Origin: Allacma fusca
Lineage: Eukaryota > Arthropoda > Collembola > Symphypleona > Sminthuridae
Length of the DNA: 64,000 nt
Direction: 5' to 3'
Assembly: GCA_947179485.1 (NCBI GenBank)
Contig: OX359249.1
Coordinates: 47,505,415-47,569,414, forward strand
Shown: positions 50,449 through 60,639 of the stretch, in pieces
Position numbering within the stretch: the first letter of the stretch is position 1
How the letters are laid out: every line of letters begins with the position of its first letter
Position numbers and translations under genes: made by a program
Notes under the pieces: generated by a model
What the model saw: the letters and a program-made list of their open reading frames with translations, nothing else
Told to the model about the DNA's origin: nothing
The model's database searches: none

Positions 50449-50912
50449 ATTACCGAATTTTTGAACTAACAAATTTTAAGAATTGAGGAAATTAAATAGA
50501 AACAGCTAAATGGGACAAATTAATGTTTACTTAATTTTAATGCCACTACAAGCGGTGTTAAAAACGTCGGAAATTGGTACATTCGATTGGCACTTTGCAT
50601 GTTAAAGTTAAAATACCGTTGGATTTCCCAATGTGGCCATAATCATTTCCCCCCTCTCTTTATTCCGTATAGAGAGTTCATCTCAAAAATTGTAGTCTTA
50701 GTATAAGAAAGATGAAGTGAGCTTTTACTAAAGAAAGTTGTAATTGTTTTGAGATGGACTCTGCATATTTCATTTAAATAAATTCCAACGAAATTTGTTA
50801 CATTTCTCTTCCGGTCATGTCTACTATTCTCAACGTACAAGTAAATCGTTCCCCGAAAGGCCATTACATTTTCTATAGATGATTTTCTGACACAAATTTT
50901 GTGTAAGCATAA
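50449..50912 (+). repeat. 464-bp direct repeat, left copy, flanking the hAT composite element
   Basis: It matches 59002-59465 base for base as far as I can compare by eye, at a constant offset of 8553, so there are no indels. It runs from ATTACCGAATTTTTG to GTGTAAGCATAA. It contains an imperfect inverted pair (AGAGTTCATCTCAAAA near 50676 and TTTTGAGATGGACTCT near 50749) that could form a hairpin with a loop of about 60 nt. Its only open frame (minus strand) is not recognised. Lack of reverse transcriptase, capsid genes or TG...CA ends argues against LTRs. Confidence 0.9.
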
Positions 50913-51152
50913 TGACTTCGGCAAAACTTTAATGGGCAGGAGAATGTTTTTGCTTTTCAAATTATTTGGTTAAAAAAACTTTTTTAAATTGAAATATATT
51001 ACAGCTGAAAATCAGTTTAATTGCAAAAAATATTTTTAAAGACAAAAGTTTGAATGAAAAATGTCAGGCAAAGTTGAGCTTCTGGTCTAGTTGATGTTTG
51101 GACTTGAGCTATAATTATCTATATAATTATGCACAGAAACATGACTGCACAC

Positions 51153-51161
51153 CAGGGGTGC
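51153..51161 (+). repeat. Internal hAT-type terminus (left)
   Basis: CAGGGGTGC, a sequence typical of hAT ends, lies inside the left arm. Its mirror is at 58738-58746. The flanking bases (CTGCACAC on the left, GTGTGCAG on the right) are inverted rather than direct copies, so they are not a normal target duplication. Confidence 0.6.
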
Positions 51162-51311
51162 ATTTACCCGGGCCCTGGCCAGAGTATAAACTGTTATTAA
51201 CTAAAATTATTTGAGTACTTTTAAATCTACAATTTAAGGTGTGCAAATATGAAATGTGTAAAAACATTATTGGCAACAGTTATTTATTACAAATATTACA
51301 TTTTATTATTA

Positions 51312-52090
51312 CAGTCGACTCTCTTTATAACGACATCAATAAATCTCCCAAAAAGTTACGTTATAAGGGAACGACGTTATAGAGGCACATAAAATTAATA
51401 CGTTTAATTGCAAATTTTTCGTTTTAGTTAAATTAGACTCATGTCTCGATTCATTTAATTAGCACATACTATATGTCTATGCAGAATGAGAATAAAAATA
51501 CATACTAAATATTAATTAATAAATAATCATATTTTTCAACGTTTACCACGCCACAAACCCTGTCACCAACAGGTCAGTATTGTATAAAGTATTTTCTGAA
51601 TTTTATTAAGACACTTCTCAGATCATTTACCAAAGTTTTCAACAGTTAAAAATGTAATTCCGTTAAAACTATGAATCTCAGTTCTTTACTGGATGCTAAA
51701 ATAAATCTAAAGGCTTCGAAATGTGGATTTTCCTGGATGGGACTTAATCAATGTCGGTAACCACACTTGTACATATATTTACAATAATACGTTCCTTCCA
51801 GTCTTTTATAACGTCGTTGCATTATAAGACAATGTAATTTTAGTGAAATTGAAGAGCAAGACACTTCAAATTGGCAGCACCGGTATGTATTTAGCTAGTT
51901 TTGCAGCTTTGTAACGTTAACATGACGATAAAAGGGTACACGTTTTACCTTACGGCTACAAAAAAGCGACTTTATAAAGGACCTCACGTTATAACGAGTG
52001 ACGCCATAAAGGTAGAAATTATCATATATTTAGCTTGAGAGGAACACAGGATGACTCTATAGGGAGAGTGACTATAAGGAGAGTCGACTG
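51312..52090. mobile_element. pogo/Tigger-like non-autonomous element, 779 bp, with TA target duplication
   Basis: Ends are CAGTCGACTCTCTTTATAAC and, inverted on the right, CAGTCGACTCTCCTTATAGT. Further inward, inverted ACGTTATAA-type motifs recur. TA flanks both sides (51310-51311 and 52091-52092). The matching place in the right arm of the host transposon (rc of about 58580-58605) reads straight through with a single TA, giving a direct empty-site control. There is no transposase frame. Family assignment rests on the TIR type and the TA target. Confidence 0.85.
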
Positions 52091-52501
52091 TATATATTAG
52101 TATTAAAACGGGTAGTCGATTTATTCAGATCTAAGTAGCACATTTTTAGCATATACAATAGTACCAAAATTTACGTATACTTTGAAAAACAATGCGTACT
52201 CAAGTACAGTTTTTTTTACTGAGGTCCAGGGTAAAAAAATGAAGTTATAAGAAATGGATGAAGATAAAATCATCAGATTAAGCTTACAAACAAGCTATTA
52301 ATTATTAAACCTATAGTCCATCGTCTCCACAAAAACAGGACATTTCGGCAATGTCGATCAAAAACTCTAATAAGACCAAGAATTAACCTTATATTAAAAT
52401 GCAAGTCCAAGTACGTTTACTCTTCCATAGATAATGTGTCTTTTACATCGAGACATTTCAAATATATATATTTAATTCAATAGTAACTAAACTGAAAATT
52501 T

Positions 52502-52800
52502 CAGGGGTACGATTTTTGTTTGTTAAGACGGGAAGACTCTTCTTGGGAAAAAATATTTCTAGCAATCTCAAAGGCAAGGGATTTATTTTTACAAACAGAG
52601 ATTTTAAAAATCGTTGACCTTTATTGGCAGGGATTTTCGTGTTGGCGTGTTATAGGGAAATTTTTAAGGCAAACAGGGATTTTCTGATTGATTCGCCTAC
52701 TTTGACAGGGATTTCACGTTTTGTAGGGGACTTTGTTTGCCAACAGGGATTTTGAAAATCGTTGACCTCTGTTCATCAGGGTTGTTCAGTTTCGGCAAAA
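52502..52800. mobile_element. Truncated copy of the CAGGGGT hAT MITE family
   Basis: Begins CAGGGGTACGATTTTTG and carries the same internal units as the intact copy at 53917 (repeated CAGGGATTTT and GTTGACC motifs). No matching right terminus is visible, so the copy is truncated or strongly decayed. It starts exactly at the inner edge of the left arm. Confidence 0.65.
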
Positions 52801-53916
52801 AGGCTATTTCTTTTATATCAAGTTTCGACCTTGCATGCATATCCATCTCAAGCTGAAGAGAGTCCATAGAGTTAAAACCTGATGACTGTCACATAGATTG
52901 GTACTTTTCATACATAAGTCACAACAGCCTACTATAATCAATGACGTGTCTTAGCAGCGTAAAGGATTCGTGTCCCAGAGAAGCTTTGGTGGAACAATAA
53001 AGGCGGGAATAAGATCACACCCGTTTCAGTAAATTCTAGTACATACGGGCAAATATTAAGGTCTAGTTTCTTCATTTCTTTCATTCACAGTCTTATTTAT
53101 CATTTTTTTCATTCGTTCAATAGTTCTTGCCCGCGTGATTTCTAGGTGTGGTCGTATAAAATTTTATCAATTTTTCCGGGAACTCAAATACAAACATTGG
53201 TGAAGTGTTCGTTGAAATTGTAATAAATTCACTTAAATCAAAACATGAGTTGATTCAATAATAATAACCCAAAGGAATTTTTGGGTTGGGCATTGCAACC
53301 TGTCTTGAATGTTGCCATTTCCGAGAATCTAAATGAGATCCAAAACTCAACATTCGACAAGTTCATTCTTTAAACAGCTATATTAGTTATTTTTGTACTG
53401 TCCGAACTTTAGTTTTAGATATTTTTGCCGAATCTACTTTCCAAAATATTTATGTGTGCTGCTGCATCGGAGGTAACTGACACTGGTGGGGTAAGTTTAT
53501 TATTATTATTTAGTATACATATACAAAATTATCCCTCAGCAAATTATTCAGCAAATTCAAACAATTATTACTCTGCATGTGAGCGCACCTTACCTGTTAA
53601 TGTTTTGAAGTACCAATATCCAGCAATTGTAGCATGCGAATATTCAACCAAAACTAAGTGAAGTGAATTCTGGTTGGATGGCAAACAATCCTGATGGTTC
53701 CATATACTGTTTATTTTTAATTTTTACAGCATTTACGGTTGGTGTTTTCCCTGCAAGCTGGAACAACGAGGACCAGCTTAAACGTCTAGGATTTTCCTGG
53801 TGGATTTCGGCAAATTGTTATTTTGTAAAGCTGTCACTACAAGAATTCCAACATCCATACTTCCAGTGTTTCAGAGGCATTACGGTAATCCATATAACGC
53901 TTGCTTCACTATTGTG

Positions 53917-54241
53917 CAGGGGTCGGATTTATGATTTATGTGGGAATACGGGAAGAATCTTCCCAGGGAAAAAAATTTCAGCAGGGAAATTTTCAAACGG
54001 GATTGCAAACAGGGATTTTTAAACCTGTTGACCTTTTTTTAGCAGGTTTTTTTTTCGAAACTGTTGAGGGGTTGTATGGAAAGCAATTTTTGTTAGCAAG
54101 GATTTTTGAAATTGTTGGGATGTATTACGAAAATTATTTTGTCAACAGGGAGTTTTAAACTTGCTTTGAACAGGGACATCATGACAAGCAGGGAAAATGA
54201 AAAAAAATCTTCCAGGGAGATTTGCAAAAATCCGACCCCTG
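53917..54241. mobile_element. Complete hAT MITE (325 bp) with 8-bp target duplication
   Basis: Perfect terminal inverted repeats CAGGGGTCGGATTT ... AAATCCGACCCCTG are flanked by the 8-bp direct duplication CTATTGTG (53909-53916 and 54242-54249), the hallmark of hAT insertion. Inside are several copies of a CAGGGATTTTnAAA/GTTGACC-type unit. Non-coding. It sits about 450 bp upstream of the first transposase exon. Confidence 0.92.
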
Positions 54242-54694
54242 CTATTGTGGTATATTTTTCTTGACAAAAATCACAAACCCTTCGTTAGTATGTCTGCGAA
54301 ATATATTCTGCCTACAAAATATATATTTAAATTTGATAAATTTTTAAATCGAACAGTTTTAACAAAGTAGCAAACAAGAAGGTACAGAACTTTCCAGTTT
54401 CTGTTCAAGACTCACAACAGCAACTTCAACACAACAACACCAATTCAGCTGTAAGCAAGCCTTAAGGCAATATTATTCATAGATTAGAGGAATAACATGA
54501 CAAAACGAATTTAAAGTTACATGTTTGAACTTAATAACCGTATATGTTTTATGCATACATTACGCGAATTTATTATTTGATTTGATACCACTTCCTCGGT
54601 ATATAATTTTTATAGTGAGTTCATAAATATGCAGAATACCTGAAATTATAAGCTGTTGATAAACTGATGTTTCGTTGTAGACTGGTTTCTAACA

Positions 54695-57600
54695 ATGAAG
54701 ATGACCGTCATTCTGTTCCTGTTTTTAATTCCGTTTGGAAACTTGGCCCCAATTAACCGTTCTTTAGGCGATCCTCCCCCCAAACGAAAAAAATATGATG
54801 GGCCTCGATGCCAACTAAAATTTTCTGAAGTTAAGTTAGGTAAATGTTTTTCGAGTACCTTTTTCTTCAATGTAATTTTAATCATATTTTTTTTGATTCC
54901 TAATTGAAAGCGTCGTATATCTTAACTCTACATACAGATTGGTCTTTGGAAAATGAGGTATCCCCTTTCATCGAATTACAGTCTGTTTGCAAAAAACGTC
55001 CAGGAAACCAACCTAAAAATGCTTTGTCTGAATATACCATGATTATTATTCAAGGACCTCCTCTTGAACTGGCCATGGTTGTCAGCTTTGAACATTTTCC
55101 TCATGATGGATCTGTACCCTTCGTTGTAATCGGTTCTCCAGATGTTGCTAATGTTCAAATTTCGACAGCCACACCACACATCCAATCCGTTTTTTCAAGG
55201 ACAGCAAGAAATCGGATGCTTCCAGTTCCCATGGATCATTCTTACTCAATTATTTTATTACGAGGTTTAAGCAAAGCCGAGGCAAAATCATTAAATCTTT
55301 ATTTCAATCCTGGTGGTGAAATGGCAGCAAGACTGCTAACAACTCAACAAATTAAACGAATATCTGAAACAGCGGTTGACATGGTTCTTTTGGGAGACAA
55401 TGAAAAATTTAACACTGAGCAATTTGAATATTTTTGGCCAGAAATATCAAGACCCATGTATACAGAAACATGGAGACTGCTCGAAGCTGCAGAAAATGAC
55501 ATGAGTCTCAGTATGTGCAGTCCTGTATACGAAGGTTTCGACGCTAGCGCTTTCGTGTTGAGTCAAGAGACTCCTGGCGAAGTAAATGCTTGCGAAGAGA
55601 ATAATCAAATAGAAGATATTACAACTACGGAAAACTCGGAGAACCATGAATTCATTACTACAATTAGTAAACAACTGCACATAATTACTGACGAACAGCT
55701 TCAACAAATCCGAACCCACGAATTTCGCCATAGTTGGGTCGATAAATGCCATAGGTTATTCCCAAAAAAATCAAAAATGCTAGAAAATGAATCAATTCAA
55801 AAATGGATAGACTTTACTGAAGATGAGTGCAGATTCACGTGCAAGGCTTGTAAATCGTATCTAGGAATTGGATTCCGGCCGGATATTAAAGCTAAATCAA
55901 AAATAGTAACTACCGGATATTTATCTACTGACACATATGACAATGGAAATGCAATTCGAAATCATGTAACTAAAACGTTACATACAGAAGCTATGGATTT
56001 CTATGGAAGAATGGAGCAATCAGTTACACACGATGAAGTTACAGAAATAATTTCTTACTTTGAGGATAAGGAGAAAGCAACTTTTAACGCTACAATGAAT
56101 TTACTTCTTATTGTTTACTCTGAGATCATGGCTGGATTACCATTTCAGGCGCACGAAGCTCTAATGAAGGCTATCAGAAAAACTGGAGCTAATGTTGGAA
56201 CAAAACACCATACTGATGACGCTCCCTCTATAATTGCGAAGGTGTTAGCTAATACATTCCGTCAGAAACTACTTCATCATCTCATAACGGAAGAGCAACC
56301 TTTCTCAATAATAATCGACTCATCAACAAGCTTTAATATTCCCTTCTTGGCAGTTTATATTCAAGTTCTAGAAGACAAATATCCCATTACTCATTTTTAC
56401 TCACTAATACACATGGCCGAAGGTGAGACCGCTGCTGAAATGTCAAATTATTTTGTAAAACAAATTAAAAAAGATGACGAACTGGTTATTGGATTTGAAA
56501 AATACTTCAAGTCCAACATCGTGTCATTTTCCAGTGATGGAGCAGCTGTGATGATTGGATCAAAGAAATCATTTAAAACTCACCTCCATGAATACGTTGG
56601 GAGGGACGTTCCTAATGTAGTTTGCCTTGCACATAAGCTAGACAGTGCCTACAAGTACGGCATAAAACCAGCCAAGCATGTACTCGAAGAGTTGGACGAT
56701 GACGACCCCATTGACGAAATTAGAAAATGGCAATTTTCCTTTTTTGAAACTTTTGAGCAGACTCTAAATGAGTTATACACGTTTTATTCCTCCCGAGGCT
56801 ATAAAAAATGGATGCACTTTTTACAAACATCTGAAGAGCTTGAAATAAATGCAAAACGTATGAAATACATCTGGAACGTACGTTGGAGCGAGTCACATTT
56901 TAAAGCGCTGGAAACTATCCATCAAATGCTGTACGGAATATTGGAAGACCTGGACCGGATTCGAAAGGACGGCCGTTTTGATGACACCTCACGTAGAAAT
57001 GCGGATGAGCATTACAACCGTATGACAGATAAAACTTATTTAATTGTGTTACACGAATTCCTAGATATTCTTTCGTCATTCAAAATTGCTTCAAAGAAAC
57101 TTCAAGAATCTTCAGCCACGCTAGTTGGAAAGGGTAAACTTATTTATGGTATACTAGACGAAATGGAGGACCTTCATAACAACCAAGGATCATCAATTAA
57201 AGGCTTCCTTCAAAATATAGCATGTCCAGATATATGTGATGACGGGGATTGCACTTTAAACAATTACGATGCTTGTGAAGAAGTACTTATTAACGGATTT
57301 CAGCTGACGAATCGGTTTGAAGTGGTAATGGACTACACAGAAGTAAGAGATGGATTGTACAGAAACATAATTGTTTCTCTTAAGAAATATTTTTCTTTGG
57401 ATCTTTTGGAGTCATTTGAGCTATTCAACCCAATCAACTTGAATTTTAAAATCCAGCTTGATGAGTTTGAAGAACATAACTTGGATACATTTTATCTCGC
57501 TGATCCAAGAACTGAAAAATACTACGCTGCACAAAGTAATGAAGTCCGCATTAAATTCCTATGCCAGTTTTACAGCGTAAATAAAGCTAATTGCGATCAA

Positions 57601-58138
57601 TTCAAAACCGAATGGGTTGGCGTTCTTTCATGTCTTGCCACTACGGAAGGATCCGCCCTAGACAACTCGGCTGATTCCACCAGGTTTTGGCCTTTAGCTT
57701 TGACACTGTGTGCGGATCAATGGACTCCTTTAACCAAAGAGATCCTGGGATATGTAATGGTAACTCCGTTCACGTCCAGTGAAGTTGAAAGGGGTAAGGT
57801 AGTTTATTTGTATAATATGAAAATACGAGCGCAATATTGATTCATGATAATTGTATTGTAAGAGTCGTCTGTGGCTTAACTGTCAATTTTCAACAGGATT
57901 TTCGATCATGAATAATTTGAAGACCAAAGGGCGATCACGAATGGACAAAGGCACCCTAGATGCCTTAATGACAGTAAAAATTAATGGTCCCGACATTGAG
58001 CGCTTTAATGTTTATGAGTATACAATTGCGTTTCTGAAGAGTCATGCTCGTGTGGACGATGATACTATGAATCGCGGAAGAAAGCCAGCAGAAGAAACGT
58101 TTTCAAGTTTGTTTTCAAAGAGCAGGATATACGAATGA
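54695..58138 (+). CDS. hAT-superfamily transposase, open reading frame of 1,089 aa in three exons
   Basis: Exons 54695-54839, 54911-57793 and 57897-58138, with 71- and 103-bp GT-AG introns in matching phase. The N-terminus carries a basic PPPKRKK patch (possible nuclear signal) after a hydrophobic stretch that makes this start codon uncertain; an upstream exon is possible. A zinc-finger-like set C359, C362, H400, H406 suggests a BED/TTF-type DNA-binding finger. The RNase H-like catalytic fold shows D518 (SIIIDSSTS), D591 (SSDGAAVM), the C620-x2-H623 CLAH motif, W707 (NVRWSES) and E1008 in SSEVERG, followed across the last intron by GFSIMNNLKTKGRSRM and a hAT C-terminal dimerisation block. The layout is closest to KIAA1586/ZNF862-type hAT proteins, from memory. 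It would catalyse cut-and-paste of its own element in the nucleus. All expected catalytic positions are present. Confidence 0.88.
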
Positions 58139-58169
58139 TAGTTTACTTATGAAGACTCCTTGTCATTCA

Positions 58170-58990
58170 TGAAATTTTCAGTTTAGTTACTATTGAATTA
58201 AATATATATATTTGAAATGTCTCGATGTAAAAGACACCTACATTATCTATGGAAGAGTAAACGTACTTGGACTTGCATTTTAATATAAGGTTAATTCTTG
58301 GCCTTATTAGAGTTTTTGATCGACATTGCCGAAATGTTCTGTTTTTGTGGAGACGATGCACTATAGGTTTAATAATTAATAGCTTGTTTGAAAGCTTAAT
58401 CTGATGATTTTATCTTCATCCATTTTTTATAACTTAACGTTTTTACCCTGGACATCAGTAAAAATATGTACTTGAGTATGCATTGTTTTTCAAAGTATAC
58501 GTAATTTTTGGTTTTTATGCTATTGTATATGCTAAGCATGTGCTACAATGTTTAGATCTGAATAAATCGACTGTCAGTTTTAATACTAATATATAATAAT
58601 AAAATGTAATAATAAATAACTGGCGCCAATAACGTTTTTACACCTTTCATATTTGCACACCTTAAATTGTAGGTTTAGAAGTACTCAAATAATTTTAGTT
58701 AATAATAGTTTATACTCTGGACACGGCGCGGGTAAATGCACCCCTGGTGTGCAGTCATGTTTCTGTGCATAATTATATAGATAATTATAGCTCAAGTCCA
58801 AACATCAACTAGACTAGAAGCTCTACTTTGCCTGACATTTTTCAATCAATCTTCTGTCTTTAAAAATATTTTTTACAATAATTAAACTGATTTTCAGCTG
58901 TAATATTTCAATTTAAAAAAGTTTTTTTAACCAAATAATTTTGAAAAGCAAAAACTTTCTTCTGCCCATTAAAGTTTTGTCGAAGTCATT
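58170..58990 (-). repeat. Right inverted terminal arm of the hAT element (uninterrupted)
   Basis: Inverse copy of the left arm. It contains an AATAAA at 58561-58566 that could serve the transposase transcript. It lacks the pogo-like insertion found in the left arm, so it shows the empty site. The outer end GTCATT is followed by GCGAATGAC, a small palindrome at the junction. Confidence 0.85.
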
Positions 58991-59001
58991 GCGAATGACT
59001 G

Positions 59002-59465
59002 ATTACCGAATTTTTGAACTAACAAATTTTAAGAATTGAGGAAATTAAATAGAAACAGCTAAATGGGACAAATTAATGTTTACTTAATTTTAATGCCACT
59101 ACAAGCGGTGTTAAAAACGTCGGAAATTGGTACATTCGATTGGCACTTTGCATGTTAAAGTTAAAATACCGTTGGATTTCCCAATGTGGCCATAATCATT
59201 TCCCCCCTCTCTTTATTCCGTATAGAGAGTTCATCTCAAAAATTGTAGTCTTAGTATAAGAAAGATGAAGTGAGCTTTTACTAAAGAAAGTTGTAATTGT
59301 TTTGAGATGGACTCTGCATATTTCATTTAAATAAATTCCAACGAAATTTGTTACATTTCTCTTCCGGTCATGTCTACTATTCTCAACGTACAAGTAAATC
59401 GTTCCCCGAAAGGCCATTACATTTTCTATAGATGATTTTCTGACACAAATTTTGTGTAAGCATAA
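59002..59465 (+). repeat. 464-bp direct repeat, right copy
   Basis: Apparently identical to 50449-50912. It starts 11 bp beyond the right arm, and its 3' neighbour (AAACGAATAAATC) is presumably the original continuation of the locus before the insertion. Confidence 0.9.
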
Positions 59466-59889: not shown

Positions 59890-60639
59890 ATGGGGGGCAT
59901 GCTTAGCAAGCTATTCATGGATATCAGGTCCGCATTTCCTCGATACTACTATGAAGCGCCCCTAAATTTTGATAGAGCCGGAGACCGAACTGTCACAGGT
60001 AAGTAACACTCATTATTATTATATGCAGACTGCATACATGACTTACACCACTTACACGGAACAGCATCCTCGCACACTTCACATTTAATAGGTCGTGCCC
60101 GTAAAAACATTCACATAATATGGGACTTGGCAATGAAATCCATGATAAGAAACGAGATGAAGACCCGGAAAGAGTTTTTCCCCGTTCTGGAAAAACGAAT
60201 GGCTAACAGAGAGGCCAGTTTGAAGTACATTTTATGTAAAATGGAAGACCTTGTTCCGAAGTTCCCAGGCTGGGATGAAGTTCGCGTTTTAGATTTACAT
60301 GATTTATTTCAAGTTTTTGAAGTTGATGGTGATGGTCTAATTGAAGTGTCTGAAATGTATGAATCTGATCTGGATTTGAAATTTAAGAATGTGATATTAA
60401 AAGCGTTTATTCCCGTGAAAGTTCTCAAACTTTCTGGGTGCAAGATTAAATCTGAAATACTTGTACACAGGTGTGTTGGCCTGGATAATTTAGGCGATAT
60501 GACCCCGATGGATGAGCGTGTCAATTTCCTGTGCTCTTTTGATGACGACGGAACGGGCAATATCGATTTTGAAGAATTTTTGGAAGTAATCATGAGTCAC
60601 ATTTTGAGAAATGTTATACAGTTAACCGTAGCTTACTAA
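59890..60639 (+). CDS. EF-hand calcium-binding protein, 218 aa, possible N-myristoylation
   Basis: Two exons, 59890-59998 and 60092-60639, joined by a 93-bp GT-AG intron in phase 1. The second half of the protein has two EF-hand loops. Loop 113-124 (EVDGDGLIEVSE) has Glu rather than Asp at position 1. Loop 187-198 (DDDGTGNIDFEE) has Thr at position 5. Both keep Gly6, Ile8 and Glu12, so calcium binding is plausible but each departs slightly from consensus. The start MGGMLSKL fits the MGxxxS/T N-myristoylation pattern, as in neuronal-calcium-sensor and related proteins, suggesting a membrane-tethered sensor. The central part (about residues 38-110) is helical and charged. I cannot assign an orthologue. 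The 5' end could extend through a non-coding exon. An AATAAA at 60889-60894 lies 250 bp after the stop. Confidence 0.75.

Follow-up and report, generated by a model that had tools for sequence, protein, structure and literature searches.

The window, a stretch of 64,000 nucleotides of Allacma fusca contig OX359249.1, carries an element of about 8.1 kb (positions 50911-59001, the C5 copy) that very probably belongs to a hAT family of low copy number whose terminal inverted repeats are long. We place the probability of this reading at about 0.85, a value that covers the family and excludes the scar at the window copy. The long arms are present in every full-length copy found, the transposase keeps an open frame with the catalytic positions of hAT enzymes, and the ends of the arms coincide with perfect 8-bp target duplications wherever the insertion has not been rearranged.

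Organisation and boundaries of the window element

The features of the locus are listed in Table 1. The inverted arms claimed in the first-pass annotation pair in two blocks, far above chance, and measure about 830 bp with an overall identity of 92% in a self-comparison. The right end, which had been set at 58990, lies at 59001 and reads ...GCGAATGACTG; the complete left end is known from the C1 copy, where it starts CAGTCATTCGC. The left end of the window copy is 11-13 bp shorter than in the other copies. Since the left junction is rearranged, the left duplication ATTACCGA can only be deduced. In a genome search with the left arm and the MITE that interrupts it, 35 of the 40 matches listed fell on the MITE segment and not on the arm. 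A tRNA scan of the window gave none.

Table 1. Coordinates of the features at the insertion locus in the window
Feature	Position	Strand	Remarks
Left direct-repeat copy	50449..50912	+	464 bp of single-copy flank; 100% identity to 59002-59465
Putative left target-site duplication ATTACCGA	50449..50456	+	Identical 8-mer at 59002, after the intact right end
Left inverted arm, outer part	50911..51311	+	92.3% identity with 58594-58990 (E 8e-167); terminal 11-13 bp missing
MITE in left arm, presumably pogo-like	51312..52090	+	779 bp; inverted ends CAGTCGACTC, TA on either side
Left inverted arm, inner part	52091..52503	+	91.8% identity with 58170-58595 (E 2e-175)
Transposase exon 1	54695..54839	+	Gene model; basic PPPKRKKYDG stretch; frame kept in C8 copy
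Transposase exon 2	54911..57793	+	D518, D591, CxxH, W707, E1008; uninterrupted in the C1, C9 and window copies
Transposase exon 3	57897..58138	+	End of hAT dimerisation region
Right inverted arm, 832 bp, terminus intact	58170..59001	-	End shared with C1, C8, C1b and C9 copies
Right direct-repeat copy	59002..59465	+	Begins with the 8-bp right target-site duplication

Copies of the family in the genome

Full-length copies with a common duplication boundary, which the first-pass annotation had proposed to look for, do exist. A genome search gave at least five full-length close copies (window or C5, C1, C8, C1b and C9) of 8.1-8.6 kb, all of them with long arms (~830, 830, 430, 430 and 565 bp). Four of the five are flanked by perfect 8-bp duplications (GTGACAAC, GTTCTGAC, CTCACAAC and ATCCTTAC), all located at one CAG boundary and at the same CAGTCATTC end, and the window copy is the rearranged fifth. 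All four read A at the seventh position and C at the eighth, neither of which is seen in the presumptive window duplication ATTACCGA, although that one has T as its second base. Element ends with up to 3 mismatches occur eight times in the genome, always within these copies (reversed control, 0), and the same search found no short derivatives with intact ends.

The earlier concern that other copies might lack the arms, or that the arms might occur independently of the transposase, does not agree with this distribution. From the 23 arm stretches listed, 19 are in the five copies, one is in a relic with transposase remains and three are isolated fragments for which the transposase search listed nothing nearby; hence arms are rarely found apart from the transposase.

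The window and C1 copies are 99.7% identical over 8,094 aligned positions, the MITE being common to both, and therefore the whole structure moved as one unit; as judged from this alignment, transposition of the complete unit with the MITE is shown. The C8 and C1b copies form a second near-identical pair (99.5% over 8,295 positions). The family is recently mobile and of the hAT kind, and its chemistry would be cut-and-paste. The suggestion that the element may still be mobile consequently fits the family, but probably not the window copy, which has lost its left terminus.

The transposase

The gene model contains three exons joined by GT-AG introns and encodes 1,089 amino acids with no internal stop, the length proposed previously for the hAT transposase. 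The stop codon lies 31 bp from the right arm, as had been noted. The motifs of hAT transposases are two aspartates, a glutamate, a CxxH and a tryptophan, and the catalytic positions claimed for this protein are all present: D518, D591, C620/H623, W707 and E1008. The spliced C-terminus matches Pfam PF05699, the hAT dimerisation region, with 22.0 bits over a cut-off of 21.4. Exon 2 alone gave no significant Pfam match, PF05699 included, and against PDB sequences a single chance match (E 0.34). Neither THAP and P-element domains nor Mutator domains appeared in the Pfam scan of exon 2 and the spliced C-terminus.

The splice sites of the intron between exons 2 and 3 are kept in all four other copies, and dN/dS values of 0.15-0.17 between subfamilies show, at the level of codon substitutions, a transposase under purifying selection. 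An AlphaFold model built on a 17-row alignment reached a mean pLDDT of 35.1, too low to be used on the RNase H fold and its insertion domain. A search for relatives in prokaryotic contigs yielded seven pattern matches, none of which was confirmed. The protein may resemble hAT members of the KIAA1586/ZNF862 type, names for which a search of open-access papers gave nothing.

Origin and maintenance of the long arms

In the arm quartets, in which sites are not independent because one conversion can alter many, 15 sites over 419 columns grouped the arms within copies, none grouped them as left and right, and one was crossed; against C9, the most diverged copy, 529 columns gave 78, 1 and 0 sites, respectively. 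On the aligned sequences, the grouping of arms within copies is shown and the two arms of one copy are homogenised. The within-copy exchange would be gene conversion, probably during repair of the excision break. In the C8 copy the identity between arms is 85.6%, as compared with 85-87% between copies; its arms are no closer to each other than to those of other copies, so homogenisation there is old. The outer ~430 bp are homologous between both arms in all three subfamilies, and thus the long arms are older than the subfamily split.

The transposase, with its two aspartates, its glutamate and its hAT dimerisation tail, would make its cuts at the CAG termini; the unit of 8.1-8.6 kb would then be inserted complete, arms included, with an 8-bp duplication. 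Exchange of sequence between opposite ends of the same copy would keep the arms alike, and copying of one end onto the other would shift the inner arm boundary. The arms presumably hold binding sites for the transposase.

The first-pass annotation had offered a choice between an undescribed hAT lineage and a composite or foldback-like derivative. The lineage with long arms agrees with the five armed copies; the derivative is unsupported because the arms reach the CAG termini and are common to three subfamilies. An arrangement of two inverted copies of another repeat flanking an ordinary short-ended hAT could explain the CAGGGGTGC motif inside the arm, which resembles the ends of other hATs, and the three stray arm fragments with no transposase listed, but it is very improbable given that ends and 8-bp duplications sit at the outer arm ends in four of the five copies, that the arms are homologous across three subfamilies and that 19 of 23 arm matches are inside the five copies. 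Capture of a repeat as the source of the arms was rejected, with arms in 5/5 copies and coincident ends in 4/5. It is also unlikely, though clearly less so, that the arms arose anew in every subfamily, the right end serving as template for the left, with no conversion of full-length ancestral arms. The inner boundary and the arm length do vary by subfamily (~830, 430 and 565 bp), and the left side of C8 is devoid of the inner arm sequence that the window and C1 copies possess; however, the homology of the outer ~430 bp in three subfamilies suggests that only the inner part was re-made.

The direct repeat and the damaged left end

The window element is bracketed by a perfect direct repeat of 464 bp (50449-50912 and 59002-59465) that, like the truncated left end, was absent from the first-pass annotation. 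The repeat begins precisely where the element ends on the right, and at the left join two bases (AA) are common to both sources. A dispersed repeat was ruled out, the high-identity matches lying only at the two places in the window; the other three of the five genome matches are 43-129 bp long and 74-89% identical.

We consider it about an even bet that the repeat and the lost left end record an excision that was aborted and then repaired with an empty site as template. The window copy would have been cut at or near its left end, and the left flank, whose last bases are the 8-bp duplication, would have been extended by copying about 456 bp from an empty homologue or sister. End-joining of this flank to the element, at the cost of 11-13 bp, would then have given the direct repeat. 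The empty C5 target would read GGTAAATC, followed by ATTACCGA and the right flank. Because its left terminus is gone, the window copy is probably immobile now. If real, the flank duplication would be a readable trace of a failing hAT excision.

It is possible, although this appears less probable than repair, that the assembly joined the empty-site and insertion haplotypes of a heterozygote, the true locus having a plain 8-bp duplication and a full left end. The perfect identity of the repeat, its start exactly where the element inserted, which is expected of an empty-site haplotype, and the fact that the lost left end is the sole structural defect found in the copy point in this direction, but a junction located 11-13 bp inside the element, with 2-bp microhomology, is unlike the overlaps on which an assembler would rely. 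A flank duplication by alternative or single-ended transposition, of the sister-chromatid or hybrid-element type described for maize Ac and P elements, is more doubtful still. In joins made by a transposase the terminus is preserved exactly and the new insertion site gains an 8-bp duplication; here the left terminus is lost. In favour of such an event, the repeat adjoins the element at both sides, and direct duplications are described as products of aberrant Ac transposition (PMC3744419).

A sister family elsewhere in the genome

A second family (B) includes members at C1:74.44M and C1:37.50M, among others, with lengths of 12.9-13.4 kb. In two members followed, the terminal repeats measure ~160-170 and 251 bp. 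A perfect 8-bp duplication flanks the C1:74.44M member, and none was found at the ends of C1:37.50M. Pieces of its transposase are 28-36% identical to that of the window family (A), and the CAG terminus is common to both; exon 2 is conserved between them, with the D, D, E, CxxH and W motifs kept. Family B elements also contain a chromodomain, C2H2 fingers and an antisense frame of 619 amino acids, none of which was found in the elements at the window, C8 and C9. The 619-aa frame had no PDB match, and its Pfam match was below threshold. Both families could, tentatively, be taken as one undescribed hAT lineage in which long self-homogenising repeats of ~160-830 bp would be a trait of the lineage, required for unusually large elements to transpose, with one branch carrying cargo genes (chromodomain, zinc fingers and a conserved antisense gene) and the window giving a snapshot of a failed one-ended excision; we regard this broader proposal as doubtful.

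Comparison with known systems

Published hATs are given as 2.5-5 kb long with terminal repeats of 10-25 bp (PMC3942097). The present element shares with the hAT superfamily (Ac, Buster and Tip groups) the 8-bp duplication, the CAG-type terminus, the D/D/E, CxxH and W positions and the C-terminal dimerisation region, and differs in its length of 8.1-8.6 kb, in repeats of ~430-830 bp and in a 1,089-aa transposase that Pfam sees at the tail alone. It is classed as a hAT variant because short repeats of 10-25 bp are taken as typical of hAT and not as strictly defining. Among the titles and abstract openings listed from the open-access literature, none described a hAT whose terminal repeats run to hundreds of bases.

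Long ends are already known in Mutator-type elements, and long repeats with exchange within the element in Galileo of Drosophila. For Galileo, terminal repeats of 18-1,250 bp, extended by recruiting internal sequence, and a proposed exchange are described, and in D. mojavensis two-repeat derivatives are reported to be commoner than near-complete copies (PMC3573991). It is assigned to the P superfamily, with 7-bp duplications (PMC2775673). Galileo is the closest parallel, in its variable long terminal repeats and the exchange between ends, whereas the Allacma element has 8-bp duplications and PF05699, and no short intact-ended derivatives were found for it. The foldback element Tetris, non-coding, with tandem repeats in its ends and duplications of 8-10 bp, was assigned to Mutator by its authors (PMC4079207). 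It resembles the present element in its long inverted ends and in an overlapping duplication size, and differs from it in that the latter has an open hAT transposase and no Mutator Pfam match. A coding hAT with long arms, perfect 8-bp duplications and re-copying of arms offers a case independent of Galileo and the Mutator-type elements on what long arms do, for which extra binding sites, fold-back repair and hot spots of rearrangement are candidate roles.

Results

The first-pass annotation had described an apparently intact hAT element with a 1,089-amino acid transposase frame between inverted terminal arms of about 820 bp, and both were borne out. The arms measure about 830 bp, a length taken from the right arm because it is unbroken, the left one being split by a 779-bp insert that we take to be a pogo-like MITE. 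In the genome search, 35 of the 40 matches listed fall on this insert and not on the arm. The spliced transposase (three exons, 1,089 amino acids) contains no internal stop, and the splice sites of its second intron are kept in all four other copies of family A, which comprises the window element and its close copies. Its C-terminus matched PF05699 with 22.0 bits, slightly over the cut-off of 21.4; exon 2 alone gave no significant match in Pfam or PDB.

Elements, copies and related loci
Feature	Position	Details
Outer left arm piece	50911-51311	inverted match to 58594-58990, 92.3% (window self-comparison)
Inner left arm piece	52091-52503	inverted match to 58170-58595, 91.8% (window self-comparison)
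MITE insert between left arm pieces	51312-52090	own inverted ends, TA on each side
Transposase exons	54695-54839, 54911-57793, 57897-58138	GT-AG introns
464-bp direct repeats	50449-50912, 59002-59465	perfect, flanking the window element
EF-hand reading frame	60127-60639	PF00036, 5.3e-08; ~1.1 kb downstream of element
Close copy C1	C1:69.77M	99% (transposase search); arms ~830 bp
Close copy C8	C8:36.68M	91%; one stop; arms ~430 bp
Related MITE in C8	~36675404-36676160	
Close copy C1b	C1:5.08M	91%; one stop, codon different from C8; arms ~430 bp
Close copy C9	C9:38.74M	87%; exon 2 open; arms ~565 bp
Relic	C8:20.66M	62% (transposase search)
Arm stretches elsewhere	C9:43.88M, C5:4.83M, C8:31.23M	
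Family B member	C1:74.44M	13.4 kb; perfect GTGGCAGT duplication; terminal repeats ~160-170 bp (86%)
Family B member	C1:37.50M	12.9 kb; terminal repeats 251 bp (96.8%); no perfect duplication
Third-set frames	C5:48463488, C8:61435970, C8:67962129, C10:61887573, C1:21189639, C10:16813035, C5:36695493	

The genome searched comprised 392.7 Mb in 91 contigs, the window lying at C5:47505415-47569414. In the transposase search 47 of 89 candidates were scored and 55 matches listed, copy counts being lower bounds; among the matches listed there are at least five close family A copies, window included. The refuting outcome named in the first-pass annotation, other copies without the long arms or arms apart from the transposase, did not hold except for three fragments: all five copies carry the arms. 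Of the 23 arm stretches listed in a genome search, 19 fall within the five copies, one lies in the relic and three lie elsewhere. A defined 8-bp target duplication, which the first-pass annotation proposed to look for at the same boundary in several copies, is perfect in four of the five (GTGACAAC, GTTCTGAC, CTCACAAC and ATCCTTAC), immediately outside the common CAGTCATTC end. Scanning for the terminal-end pattern with up to three mismatches gave eight sites, all within family A copies, and none with the reversed pattern; the eight include neither the left end of the window copy nor the right end of C9, and no short derivatives with intact ends were found by this genome scan. The C9 copy (C9:38736000-38745999) lies within a tandem repeat array, with array units on both flanks. 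The terminus is an imperfect palindrome (AGTCATT-GCG-AATGACT at window ~58984-59000, with matching ends; AGTCATTC-C-GAATGACT in C8), and for that reason each element end could form a small hairpin beside the cut site. A third set of seven distant transposase-like frames (20-23% identity) was present among the matches listed, all in open frames of more than 1,000 amino acids without stops.

Two nearly identical pairs of copies point to recent movement. Aligning the window copy with C1 over 8,094 positions shows 21 mismatches and 4 gap positions, and both carry the MITE at the identical place. Identity between C8 and C1b is 99.5% over 8,295 positions; both have a related MITE in the same arm as in the window, at another position. 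The C9 left arm holds a different insert. Left-arm inserts were seen in all three lineages and right-arm inserts in none. Transposase dN/dS between subfamilies is 0.15-0.17; the five exon 2 differences between window and C1 are too few for judging it.

Arms were compared in quartets with inserts excluded. For window and C8 (419 columns), 15 sites group the arms within a copy, none pairs arms of the same side across copies, and one is crossed; for window and C9 (529 columns) the counts are 78, 1 and 0. In the latter comparison, similarity between left and right arms reaches 95% within the window copy and 84% within C9, against only 73-75% between the copies. The inner arm boundary varies among subfamilies, the inner arm sequence of window and C1 being absent from the C8 left side. 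These alignments suggest that the two arms of a copy evolve together, one element end being occasionally copied onto the other. The C8 arms, 85.6% alike, run against this in that they resemble each other no more than arms of different copies do.

Family B, a sister hAT family in the same genome, has a protein 28-36% identical (in pieces) to that of the window and members ~70-99.7% alike in DNA. Longer-than-usual terminal repeats, present in the two members traced to both ends, may characterise the lineage more widely. The C1:74.44M copy (in C1:74427000-74446999) contains a chromodomain (PF00385, 3.3e-9), C2H2 fingers (PF13894, 7.3e-9) and an antisense 619-amino acid frame, the last matched full-length in four copies, three of them stop-free with dN/dS of 0.10-0.12. 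The C1:37.50M member has matches to all three, the frame in pieces; none was found in the three family A elements scanned (window, C8 and C9; E up to 1). Seven distant matches to the frame (18-24%) lie in 627-1,040-amino acid frames on C10, six of them clustered at C10:0.498-0.525M.

Discussion

The window copy is abnormal. Its right end is intact and directly followed by the 464-bp repeat. On the left, 11-13 bp of the terminus are missing, and the element meets the repeat at an AA common to both. Searching the genome with the 464-bp sequence gave five matches, three of them short at 74-89%, and no further high-identity copies. In its simplest history, to which we give roughly even odds, an ordinary insertion would have produced the 8-bp duplication ATTACCGA, a later cut at the left end would have opened a gap filled with ~456 bp copied from an empty-site template, and this tract would have been end-joined to the element. 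ATTACCGA fits the other four duplications in part, having T at position 2 and lacking the A at position 7 and the C at position 8 found in those four. The perfect repeat might instead be an assembly join of two haplotypes, which we consider rather unlikely. That the repeat is the product of an aberrant transposition seems improbable.

The size of its target duplication (8 bp), its terminus, its motifs and the dimerisation domain mark the element as a hAT, and we infer that it works by cut-and-paste. It lies outside the usual hAT range, which PMC3942097 gives as terminal repeats of 10-25 bp and sizes of 2.5-5 kb. For Galileo, of a different superfamily, PMC3573991 describes a similar extension of the repeats by internal sequence, and the ends of the family A element behave like those of Galileo.
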